64,000 bases of DNA. Source: Oxalobacteraceae bacterium AB_14 (GTDB taxonomy: Bacteria > Pseudomonadota > Gammaproteobacteria > Burkholderiales > Burkholderiaceae_D). Where the stretch lies: the NCBI GenBank assembly GCA_000381565.1, contig KB906724.1, forward strand, positions 242,045-306,044. The letters run 5' to 3'. This document shows positions 1,865-9,474 of the stretch, piece after piece. The notes beneath the pieces were generated by a model. It saw nothing but the letters and a program-made list of their open reading frames with translations. It was not told the origin of the DNA and did no database searches. Each line of letters starts with the position of its first letter. Positions within the stretch are counted from its first letter, which is position 1. The position numbers and the translations under genes are program-made.

Positions 1865-2494
1865 ATGACCATGAAACATTTACGCATCGTGGTCGTCAAC
1901 ACCATCATCCACGCCGGCGACGAGGATGACGACGCGCTGCGCGCGCAGGCCGAGCGGGCCCGCGCGCTGCGCATCGGCTTGCTCGAAGCGGGCTATGACA
2001 TCATCGCCTCGCTGCCGCCGGACATGTATTTGCCCGAGCGCATAGCACAGCTGCAACCGGACATGATCATCGTCGACGCCGAATCCGACGCCCGCGACGT
2101 GCTCGAACACATCGTCATCGCCACCCGCGACGAGCGCCGCCCCATCGTCATGTTCACCGAGAGCGACGACACCGAGAGCATGGAGGCCGCCATGGCGGCC
2201 GGCGTGTCGGCCTACATCGTGGCCGGCCTGCAGAGCGACCGCATCAAGCCGGTGCTGCAGGTGGCGCTGGCGCGCTTCAAGCGCGAGCAGAAGCTGCTGG
2301 ACGAACTGTCCGACACCAAGAGCAAGCTGGCCGAACGCAAGATCATCGAACGCGCCAAGGGCCTGTTGATGGAACGCCAACGTTTCACCGAAGAGCAAGC
2401 CTTTCAAAAGCTGCGCGGCATGGCCATGAGCAAGAACCTCAAGCTGTCCGAAGTCGCCCAGCGCATCCTCGACATCGAAGACCTGCTCGGCTAA
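1865..2494 (+). CDS. nasT: ANTAR-domain response regulator, NasT-type antiterminator
   Basis: RNA-binding antiterminator predicted to control the nitrate genes that follow. 209 residues from ATG 1865 (a second ATG at 1871 gives 207; neither has a clear Shine-Dalgarno). The N-terminal part is receiver-like; the last 60 residues form an ANTAR helical bundle (ERKIIERAKGLLMERQRFTEEQA followed by LSEVAQRILD). In NasT/NasR systems ANTAR dimers bind paired hexaloop hairpins in nitrate-gene leaders and stop a terminator from forming. Two such leaders occur in this window, at 2624 and 8021. It lacks the NIT sensor of Klebsiella NasR, so it is NasT-like and would need a partner; the usual NasS is not next to it. 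Confidence 0.88.
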   Translation: MTMKHLRIVVVNTIIHAGDEDDDALRAQAERARALRIGLLEAGYDIIASLPPDMYLPERIAQLQPDMIIVDAESDARDVLEHIVIATRDERRPIVMFTESDDTESMEAAMAAGVSAYIVAGLQSDRIKPVLQVALARFKREQKLLDELSDTKSKLAERKIIERAKGLLMERQRFTEEQAFQKLRGMAMSKNLKLSEVAQRILDIEDLLG

Positions 2495-2515
2495 ATCCCG
2501 TCCAAAATGATGCAC

Positions 2516-2532
2516 TGCGCAATAGCGGTGCG
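2516..2532. promoter_or_regulatory. NtrC-like enhancer site upstream of nrtA
   Basis: GCGC-AATAGCG-GTGC at 2517-2531 fits the NtrC dyad GCAC-N7-GTGC with one mismatch. Its centre lies about 100 bases upstream of the predicted sigma-54 start, a usual enhancer distance. Only one good site is visible here. Confidence 0.5.
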
Positions 2533-2597
2533 TTTTCTGCGCCATCGCACGGCGCTGTCATCCGCCCGATTCCTGCTTTCTTCCTCTGCAAACTTGC

Positions 2598-2613
2598 TGG
2601 CACAGACATTGCA
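2598..2613 (+). promoter_or_regulatory. Sigma-54 promoter of the nrt operon
   Basis: TGGCACAGACATTGCA matches the -24/-12 consensus TGGCAC-N5-TTGCA exactly, with GG (2599-2600) and GC (2611-2612) separated by ten bases. Transcription should start near 2624, which is exactly where the first leader hairpin begins. This places the nrt operon under RpoN and an enhancer-binding protein, probably NtrC. Confidence 0.85.
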
Positions 2614-2623
2614 TAGCCTGTAG

Positions 2624-2689
2624 GCAAGCGCAACGATGCGCTTGCTGTACCTCGCCAACGGCGGTGAGGTCCACCAGACAACGACGTCT
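2624..2689 (+). promoter_or_regulatory. ANTAR-type antiterminator leader of nrtA: three hexaloop hairpins
   Basis: Three successive hairpins each close a six-base loop with A at position 1 and G at position 4, the signature bound by ANTAR proteins. Hairpin 1 is 2624-2645 (stem GCAAGCGC, loop AACGAT). Hairpin 2 is 2649-2670 (stem ACCTCGCC with one G-U, loop AACGGC). Hairpin 3 is 2676-2689 (stem AGAC, loop AACGAC). The 3' strand of hairpin 3 (GTCT) is also the 5' strand of the following terminator, so the two cannot form together. Known ANTAR leaders have two such hairpins; here there are three. Confidence 0.85.
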
Positions 2690-2729
2690 ACACGCATGAA
2701 TCCGTTCATGTTGGGTAGACTTTTTTTTT
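2686..2729 (+). terminator. Regulated intrinsic terminator in the nrt leader
   Basis: GTCTAC (2686-2691) pairs with GTAGAC (2715-2720) and CATGAA (2695-2700) with TTCATG (2705-2710), followed directly by nine T residues. It lies between the promoter and the nrtA start and shares its first four bases with leader hairpin 3, so it should be the default stop that NasT relieves. Confidence 0.87.
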
Positions 2730-2765
2730 GCCGTTTTGTCTTGCTGACTACATGAGGGATTTGCG

Positions 2766-4043
2766 ATGGAATATGAAGAGCCAAAAGCGGGCAACGACCT
2801 GCCATCCGACACTGTGAACACCAAGCGTCGGCAAATCATTCATGGCGCAGGCCTGGTAGCGGGGGGAAGCATGTTGGGATTGGCAACGGGCGGGGTGTGG
2901 GCGGCGGGTTCGGACAAGCCGGAGAAGGAAGAAATCAAGATCGGCTTCATTCCGCTGACCGATTGCGCGTCGGTGGTGATGGCCTCGGTGCTGGGCTTCG
3001 ACAAGAAATACGGCGTCAAATTCGTGCTGAGCAAAGAGGCTTCCTGGGCCGGCGTGCGCGACAAGCTGGCCAACGGCGATCTCGACGCGGCCCATGTGCT
3101 GTATGGCCTGCTTTACGGCGTGCAGATGGGCATAGGCGGCCAGAAGAAGGACATGGCGGTGCTGATGAGCATCAACAACAACGGCCAGGGCATCACGCTG
3201 TCGAAGAAGCTGGCCGACAAGGGCGCCGTCGACGGCGCGTCGCTGGCCAAGCTGATGCGGACCGAACGGCGCGAGTACACCTTCGCCCAGACCTTCCCGA
3301 CCGGCACCCACGCGATGTGGCTGTACTACTGGATGGCCGCCAACGGCATCAATCCGATGAAGGACGCCAAGGTCATCACCGTGCCGCCGCCGCAGATGGT
3401 GGCCAATATGCGGGTCGGCAACATGGACGGCTTCTGCGTGGGCGAACCGTGGGGCCACCGCGCCATCATGGACGGCGTCGGCATCACCGCCACCACCACC
3501 CAGGACATCTGGAAGGACCATCCGGAAAAGGTGCTCGGCTCGACGCTGGAATTCGCCAGGAAGAACCCGAACACCTGCCGCGCGATGATGGCCGCCATCC
3601 TCGACGCCAGCAAATGGATCGACGCCTCGCTGGCCAACAAGAACAAGATGGCCGAGGTCATCGCCGACAAATCCTACGTCAACACCAGCAAGGACGCGAT
3701 CGACCAGCGCATCATGGGCCGCTACCAGAATGGCCTGGGCAAGACCTGGGACGACCAGAACTACATGAAGTTCTACAACGACGGCGCGGTCAACTTCCCC
3801 TACCTGTCGGACGGCATGTGGTTCATGACGCAGCACCGCCGCTGGGGCCTGCTGAAGGAAGACCCGGACTACCTGGCCGTGGCCACCGCGGTCAACCAGA
3901 TCGACTTGTACAAGGAGGCCGCGGCGATGACCAGGACGCCGGTGCCGAAAAGCCCGATGCGCAGCTCGAAGCTGATGGATGGCGCCGTATGGGACGGCAA
4001 GAACCCGAAAGCGTACGCCGCCTCGTTCAAGATCAAAGCCTGA
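2766..4043 (+). CDS. nrtA: Nitrate ABC transporter, periplasmic binding protein NrtA
   Basis: Captures nitrate (and probably nitrite) in the periplasm for the NrtB/NrtD importer. 425 residues. The N-terminus carries a twin-arginine signal (Arg21-Arg22 in TKRRQIIHG followed by a hydrophobic stretch to about residue 47), so it is exported folded. The mature part is a NrtA/SsuA-like type 2 binding protein with the family stretch IGFIPLTDCASVVMA and a central GEPWGHRA block. ATG 2766 lies 37 bases after the leader terminator. NasS, the usual sensor for NasT, is a cytoplasmic relative of NrtA; the clear signal argues this protein is the transporter subunit instead. Confidence 0.95.
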   Translation: MEYEEPKAGNDLPSDTVNTKRRQIIHGAGLVAGGSMLGLATGGVWAAGSDKPEKEEIKIGFIPLTDCASVVMASVLGFDKKYGVKFVLSKEASWAGVRDKLANGDLDAAHVLYGLLYGVQMGIGGQKKDMAVLMSINNNGQGITLSKKLADKGAVDGASLAKLMRTERREYTFAQTFPTGTHAMWLYYWMAANGINPMKDAKVITVPPPQMVANMRVGNMDGFCVGEPWGHRAIMDGVGITATTTQDIWKDHPEKVLGSTLEFARKNPNTCRAMMAAILDASKWIDASLANKNKMAEVIADKSYVNTSKDAIDQRIMGRYQNGLGKTWDDQNYMKFYNDGAVNFPYLSDGMWFMTQHRRWGLLKEDPDYLAVATAVNQIDLYKEAAAMTRTPVPKSPMRSSKLMDGAVWDGKNPKAYAASFKIKA

Positions 4044-4961: not shown

Positions 4962-5768
4962 ATGGACGAGCCAAGATTCATCGACATCGAAGGCGTGGAG
5001 ATGGTGTTCCATACCCGGAAGGGCGTGTTCCACGCGCTGCGCGAGATCGACCTGACGGTGCGCAAGGGAGAGTTCATCACGCTGATCGGCCACTCGGGTT
5101 GCGGCAAATCGACCTTGCTGAACCTGATCGCCGGCCTGCTCAAGCCCACCGACGGCGTGCTGTTGTGCGCCAACCGTGAGATCGCCGGGCCGTCGCCGGA
5201 GCGCTCGGTGGTGTTCCAGAACCATTCGCTGCTGCCCTGGTTGACCTGCTACGAAAACATCCACCTCGGCGTGGAGCGCGTGTTCGGCAAGACCGAGTCG
5301 CGCAACCAGCTGCGCGAGCGCACCATGCAGGCGCTGGCGCTGGTGGGCCTGACGGCGGCCGGGTCCAAGCGCCCGCATGAAATCTCGGGCGGCATGAAGC
5401 AGCGCGTTGGCATCGCCCGCGCGCTGGCGATGGAGCCGAAGGTGCTGCTGATGGACGAACCCTTCGGCGCGCTCGATGCGCTGACCCGCGCGCACTTGCA
5501 GGACGAGCTGCTGAAGATCGTCGCCGCCACCAGGTCGACGGTGGTGATGGTCACGCACGATGTGGACGAGGCGGTGCTGCTGTCGGACCGCATCGTCATG
5601 ATGACCAACGGCCCGGCGGCCACCATCGGCGAGATCGTCGATGTGAAGCTGGATCGTCCGCGCGACCGTGTGGCGCTGGCGCAGGATGCGCGCTACACCG
5701 GGTACCGTACCGCAGTGCTGGAGTTCTTGTATCGCAAACAAGCCCACCCTACGAAGGAAGCCGCCTGA
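4962..5768 (+). CDS. nrtD: Nitrate ABC transporter ATPase NrtD
   Basis: ATP-hydrolysing subunit that powers NrtB. 268 residues: Walker A GHSGCGKST (43-51), Q-loop at VVFQNHSLLPW, ABC signature ISGGMKQR, Walker B VLLMDEPFGALD and switch His in VTHDVDEA. It is the single-domain NrtD form, without the NrtA-like fusion of cyanobacterial NrtC. Its stop codon shares one base with the next start (TGATG), so translation of the PilJ/MCP-like protein is probably coupled to it. Confidence 0.94.
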   Translation: MDEPRFIDIEGVEMVFHTRKGVFHALREIDLTVRKGEFITLIGHSGCGKSTLLNLIAGLLKPTDGVLLCANREIAGPSPERSVVFQNHSLLPWLTCYENIHLGVERVFGKTESRNQLRERTMQALALVGLTAAGSKRPHEISGGMKQRVGIARALAMEPKVLLMDEPFGALDALTRAHLQDELLKIVAATRSTVVMVTHDVDEAVLLSDRIVMMTNGPAATIGEIVDVKLDRPRDRVALAQDARYTGYRTAVLEFLYRKQAHPTKEAA

Positions 5769-6439
5769 TGGACATGACCACACCCCCCATGGCGCCGGAA
5801 GGCGCCGCCAAGAAAGCGCTGACCGGCGAAATGTTCGGCGCCTTGATCAACCTGTCGGGCCGGCGCCGCTTCACGTCGCAGCGCATCGTGCTGTATGCGC
5901 TGCTGGCGTCGCAAGGGCAGGGGGAGGGTGTGGCTGTCGCGCAGGAGGCGCTGGCGCTGTTCCGTGGCGCTCACAAGTCCCTGCTGGCCGAGAAGGATGG
6001 CTTGCCGGGCGTGTTCTGTCCCGAGCTGCACGAGGCGTATTTCGGCAAGCCGGACGGCGACCGCCAGATCGTCGCCTTTGCAGACCTGGGCGAGCGCACC
6101 CTGAAGGCGATCGAACAGGGTTCGCCGCGCAGCGCCGAGCTGCTGGCGGAGCTGGTGCGCATCACCACGCCGACGCTGGCGGTGCTCAACACGATCACCA
6201 GCATCTACGAAGAGCAGGCCAAGCTGAACGCGCGGCTGGTGCGCAAGCAGCTGCGCGGCGTCATCACCGATATCGAAACGATCAACCGCCAGGCGCGCAT
6301 GGTGGCCTTCAATGCGCGCATCGTCGCGGCAAGGGCGGGGCACGCGGGCAAGGAATTCTCGGTGGTGGCGGGCGTACTGTCCAACATCACCGGCGAGATC
6401 GATGAAATGGTCAGCGCGGCGCTGGCCGCCGCGGGTTAA
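5768..6439 (+). CDS. Soluble PilJ-type (nitrate P-box-like) / truncated chemoreceptor protein
   Basis: 223 residues, no membrane segment or signal peptide. The start has INLSGRRRFTSQR (residues 27-39), the conserved motif of the PilJ/NarX-type sensor domain, related to the P-box that binds nitrate in NarX/NarQ. The C-terminus (about 170-215) keeps only the hairpin tip of a chemoreceptor signalling domain (INRQARMVAFNARIVAARAG, then FSVVAGVLSNI), with no room for methylation helices or long coiled coils. Coupled to nrtD and followed by cobA. I infer a cytoplasmic nitrate/nitrite sensor, possibly the partner of the NasT-like regulator; this is untested and the fold is assigned by motif only. 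Confidence 0.75.
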   Translation: MDMTTPPMAPEGAAKKALTGEMFGALINLSGRRRFTSQRIVLYALLASQGQGEGVAVAQEALALFRGAHKSLLAEKDGLPGVFCPELHEAYFGKPDGDRQIVAFADLGERTLKAIEQGSPRSAELLAELVRITTPTLAVLNTITSIYEEQAKLNARLVRKQLRGVITDIETINRQARMVAFNARIVAARAGHAGKEFSVVAGVLSNITGEIDEMVSAALAAAG

Positions 6440-7892: not shown

Positions 7893-7940
7893 GCACCGAT
7901 AGCGTGCATCGTGCACCGCAACATGGCACGACACCAGTGC
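7893..7940. promoter_or_regulatory. Pair of NtrC-type enhancer sites upstream of narK
   Basis: Two exact GCAC-N7-GTGC dyads, at 7893-7907 and 7926-7940. Their centres are 33 bases apart, close to three helical turns, and lie about 119 and 86 bases upstream of the predicted sigma-54 start. This is the standard layout for cooperative NtrC dimers. Confidence 0.78.
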
Positions 7941-7991
7941 AAACCAGGCCCACTGCGGCCCTCTCCCCCTGCAAACAAGCCCTTCTCGGTC

Positions 7992-8007
7992 TGGCACGCC
8001 TCTTGCA
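7992..8007 (+). promoter_or_regulatory. Sigma-54 promoter of narK-nirBD-nasA
   Basis: TGGCACGCCTCTTGCA is a perfect -24/-12 element, GG at 7993-7994 and GC at 8005-8006 with ten bases between. Start of transcription predicted near 8018, just before the first leader hairpin. Confidence 0.87.
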
Positions 8008-8020
8008 CTACAAAGGCTAA

Positions 8021-8088
8021 GGGATCAACGGCGATCCCCCCGAATACATCAGTCAACCCAATGACGGGTTGGCAGGACAACGGCGTCC
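8021..8088 (+). promoter_or_regulatory. ANTAR-type antiterminator leader of narK: three hexaloop hairpins
   Basis: Same design as the nrtA leader. Hairpin 1 is 8021-8038 (stem GGGATC, loop AACGGC). Hairpin 2 is 8052-8073 (stem GTCAACCC with one U-G, loop AATGAC). Hairpin 3 is 8075-8088 (stem GGAC, loop AACGGC). Every loop has A at 1 and G at 4. Hairpin 3 overlaps the 5' arm of the terminator that follows, so binding there would block termination. Linkers are 13 and 1 bases, against 3 and 5 in the nrtA leader. Confidence 0.86.
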
Positions 8089-8138
8089 GCCCAACCTGGT
8101 CTTAGGTGATCTTGGTTGCGCGGGCGCCTTTTTGTTTT
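8082..8138 (+). terminator. Regulated intrinsic terminator in the narK leader
   Basis: GGCGTCCGCCCAACC (8082-8096) pairs with GGTTGCGCGGGCGCC (8114-8128): 15 positions with one mismatch and one G-U, followed by TTTTTGTTTT. Positions 8082-8088 are shared with leader hairpin 3. Transcription would stop 17 to 27 bases before the narK start unless hairpin 3 is held. Confidence 0.87.
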
Positions 8139-8154
8139 CTGAACGGGATAAAAT

Positions 8155-9474
8155 ATGGCCACCAAAGCTACCAGCATCAAGCTCTTTTCGATCTCAACGC
8201 CTCAGATGCGGGCGTTCCACTTGACCTGGATGGCGTTCTTCGTCTGCTTCTTCGCCTGGTTTGCCTGCGCACCGCTGATGCCGGTGATTAAAGGGGAATT
8301 CGGCCTGAGCGTCGCGCAGATCGCCAACATCAACATCGCCGCCGTCGCCATCACCATCCTCGTGCGGCTGGTGGTCGGCCCTCTGTGCGACCATTTCGGT
8401 CCACGCAAAACCTATACGGGCTTGCTGCTGCTGGGCGCCATCCCGGTGATCGGCGTCGCCTTCGCGCAAAGCTACGAGAGCTTCCTGCTGTTCCGCCTTG
8501 GTATCGGCGCGGCCGGCGCCAGCTTCGTCATCACGCAGTACCATACCTCGGTGATGTTCGCGCCCAAGGTGGTGGGCACCGCCAACGCCGCGGCCGCAGG
8601 TTGGGGCAATGCCGGCGGCGGCGTGGCGCAAGCCGTGATGCCGCTGCTGATGACCGCCATGGTCATGCTGGGCGTGAGCGAAACCTACGGCTGGCGCGCC
8701 GCGCTGCTGGTGCCGGGCGTGCTGATGATCGTCATGGCCGGCCTCTACTACCGCTTTACCCAGGATTGCCCGCAAGGGAACTTCAGCGAACTACGCGCAG
8801 CCGGCATCACCATCGAAGGCGGAAGCAAGGGCACTGCCCGAGCAGGTGGCTGGGATAGTTTCAAGCTTGCCTCCATCAATTACCGCGTATGGATGCTGTT
8901 CATCACCTACGGCGCCTGCTTTGGCATCGAGATCTTCATCCACAACATCGCCGCGATTTATTACGTCGACCACTTCAAACTGACGCTGGCCCAAGCCGGC
9001 ATGGCGGCGGGCAGCTTCGGCCTGCTGGCGTTGTTCGCCCGTGCGCTGGGCGGCTGGGTGTCGGACAAATTCGCCGCCGCCGGCAACCTGAATAACCGCG
9101 TCACGCTGCTGTTCGTGCTGATGCTGGGCGAAGGCGCCGGCCTGCTGTTGTTCGCCAACGCCGGCAGCGCCGCACTGGCGATCGGCGCCATGCTGGTATT
9201 CGGCCTGTTCACCCACATGGCCTGCGGCGCGACCTACGCCATCGTGCCTTTCGTCGACAAGCGCGCCCTGGGCGGCGTGGCCGGCATCATCGGCGCGGGC
9301 GGCAACGTCGGCGCCGTGGCCGCGGGCTTCCTGATGAAGGGCCTGGGCAACGTTCAGCAAACCTTGAGCATCCTCGGCATCGTCGTCGCCGCATCCGCGC
9401 TATGCGCACTGGCGGCGCGCTTCAGCAGCAGCACCGTCGAAGAAACCGCAACCGCCGCCGAGCTGGCAGCCTAA
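8155..9474 (+). CDS. narK: Nitrate/nitrite transporter, NarK/NasA family MFS
   Basis: Inner-membrane nitrate porter. 439 residues, twelve predicted membrane helices. The first nitrate-signature stretch AGWGNAGGG and the second, GAGGNVGAV, are both present, and the substrate-binding Arg lies in ITILVRLVVGPLCDHFGPR. It is a single NarK unit, not the NarK1-NarK2 fusion of denitrifiers. Its place ahead of nirBD and nasA fits assimilatory uptake of nitrate, parallel to NrtABD. GAACGGG serves as the ribosome binding site. Confidence 0.95.
   Translation: MATKATSIKLFSISTPQMRAFHLTWMAFFVCFFAWFACAPLMPVIKGEFGLSVAQIANINIAAVAITILVRLVVGPLCDHFGPRKTYTGLLLLGAIPVIGVAFAQSYESFLLFRLGIGAAGASFVITQYHTSVMFAPKVVGTANAAAAGWGNAGGGVAQAVMPLLMTAMVMLGVSETYGWRAALLVPGVLMIVMAGLYYRFTQDCPQGNFSELRAAGITIEGGSKGTARAGGWDSFKLASINYRVWMLFITYGACFGIEIFIHNIAAIYYVDHFKLTLAQAGMAAGSFGLLALFARALGGWVSDKFAAAGNLNNRVTLLFVLMLGEGAGLLLFANAGSAALAIGAMLVFGLFTHMACGATYAIVPFVDKRALGGVAGIIGAGGNVGAVAAGFLMKGLGNVQQTLSILGIVVAASALCALAARFSSSTVEETATAAELAA

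Follow-up and report, generated by a model that had tools for sequence, protein, structure and literature searches.

The nitrate cluster and the narK leader

We analyzed a stretch of 64,000 nucleotides (here called the window) from a Duganella-like bacterium. It carries a nitrate cluster with the gene order nasT, nrtABC, a PilJ/MCP-like gene, cobA, narK, nirB and nasA. Several of these names were assigned from the protein sequences and are presumptive. The name narK for the gene at 8155–9474 (+ strand), taken over from a sequence-only reading of this DNA, is likewise assumed; its product is an MFS nitrate/nitrite transporter with a match to MFS_1. The nasT-like gene at 1865–2494 (+ strand) encodes an ANTAR-domain regulator (PF03861, 75.3 bits), and its Response_reg match (21.7 bits) lay below the cut-off. 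A second ANTAR protein is encoded on contig C2 (L002, 1090–1719), with what we take to be a receiver-like part and a neighbouring thiE-like gene.

The narK RNA leader is located at 8021–8133, 5' of the transporter gene. It contains three A1/G4 hexaloop hairpins on the + strand, all of which the sequence-only reading had described. The 5'-terminal hairpin HP1 (8021–8038) has a stem of 6 bp and the loop AACGGC (GGGATC-AACGGC-GATCCC). The middle hairpin HP2 (8052–8073) has 8 bp and the loop AATGAC (GTCAACCC-AATGAC-GGGTTGGC), and the antiterminator hairpin HP3 (8075–8088) has 4 bp and again the loop AACGGC (GGAC-AACGGC-GTCC). The linkers are 13 nt between HP1 and HP2 and 1 nt between HP2 and HP3, so that HP1 and HP3 stand 36 nt apart.

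HP3 overlaps an intrinsic terminator (8082–8133, + strand) with arms at 8082–8096 and 8114–8128, followed by T5. The terminator stem comprises 15 positions as previously read; C faces C at one of them, which leaves 14 pairs, one of these being G-U. Its 5' arm begins within the loop of HP3, and positions 8082–8088 are common to both structures, which are mutually exclusive.

A fold of the 120-nt leader gave a z-score of -4.5, and none of 200 shuffles was equally stable. For the leader as a whole, the lowest-energy structure predicted comprises HP1, HP2 and the terminator. This state had -57.1 kcal/mol in comparison to -44.9 kcal/mol for the full leader with HP3 forced, a cost of 12.2 kcal/mol. 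Folding of growing prefixes indicated that the hairpins form in the order HP1, HP2, HP3. The 3' arm of HP2 can alternatively pair with bases beyond HP3 (8066–8096), resulting in a longer transient HP3 stem. Some prefixes short of the complete terminator favoured this longer stem, with HP2 opened. We did not count it as a conserved element; by eye it apparently holds in near relatives only.

The nrtA leader and the standing of both leaders in the genome

A second leader with three A1/G4 hexaloops precedes nrtA at 2624–2690 (+ strand), with hairpins at 2624–2645, 2649–2670 and 2676–2689. Its terminator follows (3' arm GGTAGAC, then T9). The linkers of 3 and 5 nt set against 13 and 1 nt in the narK leader agree with what had been read before, and the stem sequences of the two leaders differ. 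All 16 loci of the nasT-nrtABC type, the window included, carried a triple nrtA leader. This list left out L016, L024 and L076, which had passed via a distant nrtC-like match and had neither nrtB nor such an HP3.

In a scan of the whole genome with Rfam narK RNA the nrtA leader reached 29.7 bits and the narK leader 26.9 bits, followed by 18.7 bits for the next site. A triple-hairpin model gave E-values of 8e-11 and 3e-18 for the nrtA and narK leaders, both of which belong to its training set, and 0.04 for the next site. Among the best 150 candidates scored per scan (out of 2197 first-look candidates for Rfam narK RNA and 4621 for the triple model) only these two leaders stand out. A looser pattern applied to the same genome found 4 sites, both leaders included, in comparison to 8 for its control and is uninformative alone.

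The promoter region

For comparison, the best 80 narK loci from a search in which 589 candidates encoded a relative were collected together with the window, yielding 79 usable narK leaders. L056 and L061, where the contig ends inside the leader, and L001/L002, which are not narK loci, were dropped ahead of the counts. The set is dominated by close relatives.

Upstream of the leader we found a consensus sigma-54 -24/-12 promoter, TGGCACGCCTCTTGCA, at 7992–8007 (+ strand), as the sequence-only reading had stated. From this promoter the +1 of the narK transcript would be located near 8017. The sigma-54 element was matched in 76 of 79 narK leaders, window included. HP1 starts at +4 to +7 in 74 of the 75 leaders with both HP1 and a promoter match, so that HP1, beginning 4–7 nt past the predicted +1, would be the first structure exposed by the polymerase.

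Further upstream are two exact GCAC-N7-GTGC dyads with a spacing of 33 nt, at 7893–7907 (GCACCGATAGCGTGC) and 7926–7940 (GCACGACACCAGTGC), a motif that we take from the earlier reading to be that of NtrC. The paired, putative NtrC sites of the earlier reading are present in the window and only partly conserved among its relatives. An exact pair was present in 2 of 75 promoters examined, namely the window and L003, after L049 and the leaders lacking a sigma-54 match had been dropped as well. Over the 160 nt upstream, 24 of the 75 promoters carried one or more exact dyads; besides the two with a pair, 22 had a single one. The dyads lie most often near the distance of the upstream copy of the window. 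In total there were 26 exact dyads in comparison to 0.45 expected under base shuffles. The narK promoter is probably activated by NtrC, whose binding is suggested by these dyads.

Conservation and covariation of the three hairpins

Conservation differed between the hairpins. HP3 was present in 79 of 79 narK leaders and its stem was invariant; HP1 was found in 78 of 79, with L032 as the exception. HP2 with an A1/G4 hexaloop was present in all 75 leaders outside Burkholderia/Paraburkholderia; its stem is uninterrupted in 67 of these and has a single mismatch among its eight pairs in the other 8. The 4 leaders of Burkholderia/Paraburkholderia all lack it. Three hairpins are thus not obligatory. 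The spacing between HP2 and HP3 ranged from 1 to 12 nt and that between HP1 and HP3 from 33 to 59 nt.

Since the detector imposed the A1/G4 loop, the remaining loop classes serve as the fair control. With a stem of 6 or more of 8 pairs required, the HP2 slot carried an A1/G4 loop in 64 of 79 leaders and the next loop class in 8 of 79. Two loop positions that were not imposed were restricted as well, with A at position 2 in 73 of 76 and A or G at position 5 in 76 of 76 rows. These 76 rows mean 75 leaders, as the covariation count also took a chance-like HP2 in L065 (5 of 8 pairs).

The sequence-only reading proposed that the third hairpin is selected and not accidental, and called for an alignment with covariation of all stems. 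On the NarK protein tree, HP2 showed 22 compensatory changes on both sides, 41 pairing-preserving changes on one side, 16 breaking and 8 restoring changes, L065 being included in these counts. When the 3' arm was slid by -2, -1, +1 or +2, only 0, 2, 3 and 4 compensatory changes were found, the slid controls containing fewer cells (456–532 of 608). HP1 showed 8 compensatory changes in comparison to 0 in the slid control. Its five inner pairs were unbroken in 78 of 78 leaders and its sequence is nearly fixed. For HP3 no covariation was seen, which is uninformative, since its stem never varies in narK leaders; its conservation could stem from the terminator alone. In an alignment of 15 rows (14 narK and 1 nrtA) 96.3% of the pair cells were paired, in comparison to 25–50% when slid.

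A chance origin of the extra hairpin, or its inheritance from a common ancestor with no selection acting on it, might be argued from the little varying sequences of HP1 and HP3, where conservation alone proves little, and from the dominance of close relatives among the best 80 of 589 loci. We nevertheless give this explanation hardly any credence, given the 22 compensatory events in HP2 against 0–4 in the slid controls, the excess of the A1/G4 loop over the other classes and the separate nrtA leader, which is triple in 16 of 16 loci with another sequence and other linkers.

Stem substitutions without compensation had been named beforehand as evidence against selection. Such breaks occur at single pairs; furthermore, none of the 4 Burkholderia/Paraburkholderia leaders has any HP2, and HP1 is absent from 1 of 79. 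Selection thus maintains the third hairpin inside the clade, as the compensatory changes of HP2 uphold, and elsewhere it is dispensable.

It might also be assumed that the compact HP2 and HP3 form the working pair, HP1 protecting the 5' end of the mRNA or being a relic. HP2 and HP3 stand at the spacing and loop distance seen in compact dual leaders, HP1 is located at +4 to +7, and L032 does without it. A plain 5' stabiliser needs neither the A1/G4 loop, which HP1 retains in 78 of the 79 leaders, nor a nearly fixed sequence, and HP1 persists where HP2 is gone. We consider this explanation unlikely.

Leaders found by the last hairpin and the terminator

A wider survey used only HP3 and the terminator as search pattern and thereby made no assumption on HP1 and HP2. 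The pattern was present in 39 of 399 genomes of the order and in 40 of 369 genomes of the class, the genome of the window being counted in both. Among the sites listed there were 42 in the order, 45 in the class and 51 in the phylum, in comparison to 0, 3 and 8 for the reversed pattern. No site of the phylum search lay outside the class. Removal of the window's own copies (L094, L115 and L132) left 85 leaders. Of these, 76 are followed within 1,400 nt by a homologue of any of six proteins from the window's nitrate cluster.

Upstream hexaloop hairpins with a dG of at most -6 were of the A1/G4 class in 108 cases and of each of the 15 other classes in 1–8 cases. At a dG of at most -4 the distances of the A1/G4 hairpins from HP3 were bimodal. 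There were 52 at 15–29 nt, 7 at 30–44 nt, 43 at 45–64 nt, none at 65–69 nt and 19 farther upstream, in comparison to an average of less than one per 5-nt bin for the other loop classes. Two slots, a proximal one at about 20 nt and a distal one at about 55 nt, can be distinguished. Both were occupied in 28 leaders, only the proximal one in 25 and only the distal one in 16; 9 leaders had another arrangement and 7 had none. The 28 leaders with both slots span 15 family codes including that of the window (f1). Two of these leaders, L164 and L102, count as such although their distal hairpins are weak (-4.4 and -4.3 kcal/mol); leaving both out gives 26 of 85 leaders and 13 families.

In the 16 leaders with a distal hexaloop only, this hexaloop sits in the same slot of 44–66 nt. 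Such leaders suggest that HP1 and HP3 could form the working pair of an expanded dual motif, HP2 being a spacer hairpin that joins them and its hexaloop secondary. Of the 16 inserts, 7 folded significantly, and 6 of them have a loop of 4, 5 or 8 nt instead of a hexaloop. In the alignment of Rfam narK RNA to the narK leader, too, HP1 and HP3 are matched and HP2 is a 28-nt insert. The remaining 9 inserts were not significantly structured, and the seventh structured one (L108) has the A1/G4 loop AGTGAA on two closing pairs, which the detector rejected. The idea of a spacer hairpin is thereby supported in just 7 of the 16 leaders. Together with the A1/G4 hexaloop of HP2 in 75 of 75 leaders outside Burkholderia/Paraburkholderia, this leaves the expanded dual motif a doubtful, if serious, alternative.

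A further 38 leaders were held out, with duplicates dropped; all belong to the class and 25 to the family f210. Here, 24 had the proximal hairpin only, 3 both, 1 the distal one only, 3 another arrangement and 7 none. Four loops fell in the distal bins (45–64 nt), where other classes had a mean of 0.9, and two in the trough (30–44 nt). This test, declared beforehand for genomes outside the class and run on 38 leaders inside it, did not reproduce the bimodality or the distal peak, and the evidence for the two-slot pattern comes from the 85 leaders that first revealed it. The distal slot is a property of some lineages and is not universal.

Two leaders of family f104 (L169 and L170) have HP3 and the terminator ahead of nrtA-like and reductase-like genes. 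No upstream A1/G4 hexaloop was detectable in either, and these are possibly single-hexaloop leaders.

Comparison with known ANTAR leaders and Rfam narK RNA

Textbook ANTAR antitermination leaders consist of two hexaloop hairpins. The motif is described for EutV/eut, NasR/nasF and AmiR/amiE (Ramesh 2012, PMC3369931; Walshe 2022, PMC8934654). The narK leader resembles it in its A1/G4 hexaloops on short stems, its nitrogen genes, the overlap of its last hairpin with an intrinsic terminator and the ANTAR regulator in the same cluster. ANTAR leaders have at least two A1/G4 hairpins, and the narK leader differs from the dual motif in having three.

The spacing differs as well. For eut a linker of 5–12 nt was critical, and 3 or 14 nt lowered induction (PMC3369931); in the EutV work, activity was lost with 20 extra nt. 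A search model for actinobacterial ANTAR leaders allows a linker of 2–25 nt. Set against these rules, the eut spacing is approached in the window between HP1 and HP2 (13 nt) and between HP2 and HP3 (1 nt) and not between HP1 and HP3 (36 nt); across narK leaders the latter gap of 33–59 nt is unlike eut.

The narK leader aligned over the full length of Rfam RF03032 (narK RNA) at 7993–8089. Its 26.9 bits, like the 29.7 bits of the nrtA leader, remained below the gathering score of 43.2, and the narK leader is therefore not filed as a member. Common to both are the sigma-54 promoter bases, a hexaloop hairpin at the 5' end and a 3' block resembling HP3. In contrast, a single hairpin is annotated in the model, where the HP3 block appears as unpaired bases, and HP2 of the narK leader forms a 28-nt insert. 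At gathering score RF03032 was found in 4 of 20 other loci, all of family f210 (L210, L211, L216 and L217; 57–81 bits), in none of the remaining 16 and in none of 6 narK loci. At gathering scores Rfam gave no match in the window. Matches to P11 (16.8 bits) and SR6 (21.7 bits) were far below their thresholds and were taken as chance. Judged from these alignments, RF03032 narK RNA appears to be a compact two-hexaloop NasT/ANTAR leader whose second hexaloop hairpin was left unannotated.

EutX likewise combines a dual hexaloop motif with one additional G4 hexaloop in one RNA, according to Walshe 2022 (PMC8934654); it is a sequestering small RNA, whereas the narK leader is an operon leader in cis. 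By analogy to this extra hexaloop, HP1 and HP2 might titrate or pre-load NasT as decoys without help in cis. This is very improbable, since the hairpins are part of one transcript and keep fixed distances to the terminator downstream. A literature search, largely without subscription journals and the presumed first report of narK RNA, retrieved neither a cis leader with three hexaloops nor a link between narK RNA and ANTAR; their absence from print is therefore not established.

The NasS-NasT nas leaders of Paracoccus and Bradyrhizobium (PMC5424462, PMC6759348) have a NasT-type regulator and a hairpin-bearing nitrate-assimilation leader in common with the window. The Paracoccus leader is reported to have two hairpins, HI and HII, in contrast to the three hexaloops found here. 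In contrast to the two-protein system, no separate NasS was found beside NasT (region 1865–4040) or elsewhere in the genome, where a search with NrtA gave NrtA alone (E ≤ 0.001). This counts against the nitrate input to NasT proposed below.

The gene directly following nasT is nrtA, with an N-terminal extension. In its sequence this extension resembles a Tat signal. In 27 relatives with nasT and lacking nrtB, an NrtA-like protein of 55–70% identity follows nasT. Its match begins at most 83 nt past the end of the nasT match in 22 of these, and in 21 of the 22 it covers NrtA only from residue 35–57 on. These 21 proteins would fit NasS without a signal peptide. The gene between nrtC and cobA (5768–6439) encodes a protein of 223 amino acids with weak matches to the PilJ N-terminal and MCP signalling domains and is found in 17 of the best 80 narK loci. 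As a speculation, its product is a candidate signalling partner.

Proposed mechanism and implications

Taken together, NasT, an ANTAR antiterminator, very probably targets the narK leader; its binding is suggested by the NasT-like gene in the same cluster, the excess of the A1/G4 loop class, the covariation and the ordered folding. The long distance between HP1 and HP3, beyond the critical spacing of eut, argues against three sites for NasT, and the mostly compact held-out leaders argue against their generality. On balance we consider it likely that the leader is a NasT (ANTAR)-controlled antitermination leader with a sigma-54 start, HP3 as antiterminator and HP1 and HP2 as selected NasT sites.

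We infer the following course, including NasT binding, the nitrate signal, NtrC, the relay and the benefit of a third site. Transcription would start at the sigma-54 promoter, probably activated by NtrC. In a transcript left alone the far more stable terminator would form and stop transcription before narK. With nitrate, active NasT would hold HP3 via its hexaloop until the polymerase clears the T-run. Most likely, HP1 and HP2 would bring NasT onto the growing transcript ahead of the synthesis of HP3.

According to Walshe 2022 (PMC8934654) binding is successive: a dimer first occupies the leading hexaloop and then shifts to that of the antiterminator. NasR bound two hairpins better than one (PMC7496416). 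Handing NasT from HP1 to HP2 to HP3 would be a three-site form of the two-site model, in which the third site would lengthen the loading time or admit a second dimer.

As a tentative generalization, which we hold at somewhat less than even confidence, Burkholderiales and several other families may possess three-site ANTAR leaders of nitrate assimilation. These would combine the antiterminator hairpin with a relay or spacer hairpin about 20 nt and a 5'-terminal loading hexaloop about 55 nt upstream of it. NasT would be passed on or two dimers would bind, the distal site being freed from tight spacing, and Rfam narK RNA would be the compact two-site form.

Two published ANTAR models differ in whether a single dimer holds two hexaloops at once (PMC3369936) or moves between the hexaloops in turn (PMC8934654). 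The natural three-site, distal-only and proximal-only leaders are ready-made constructs to separate these models. Search models with two hairpins and a short linker describe only part of such leaders, and the leaders suggest a function for Rfam narK RNA.
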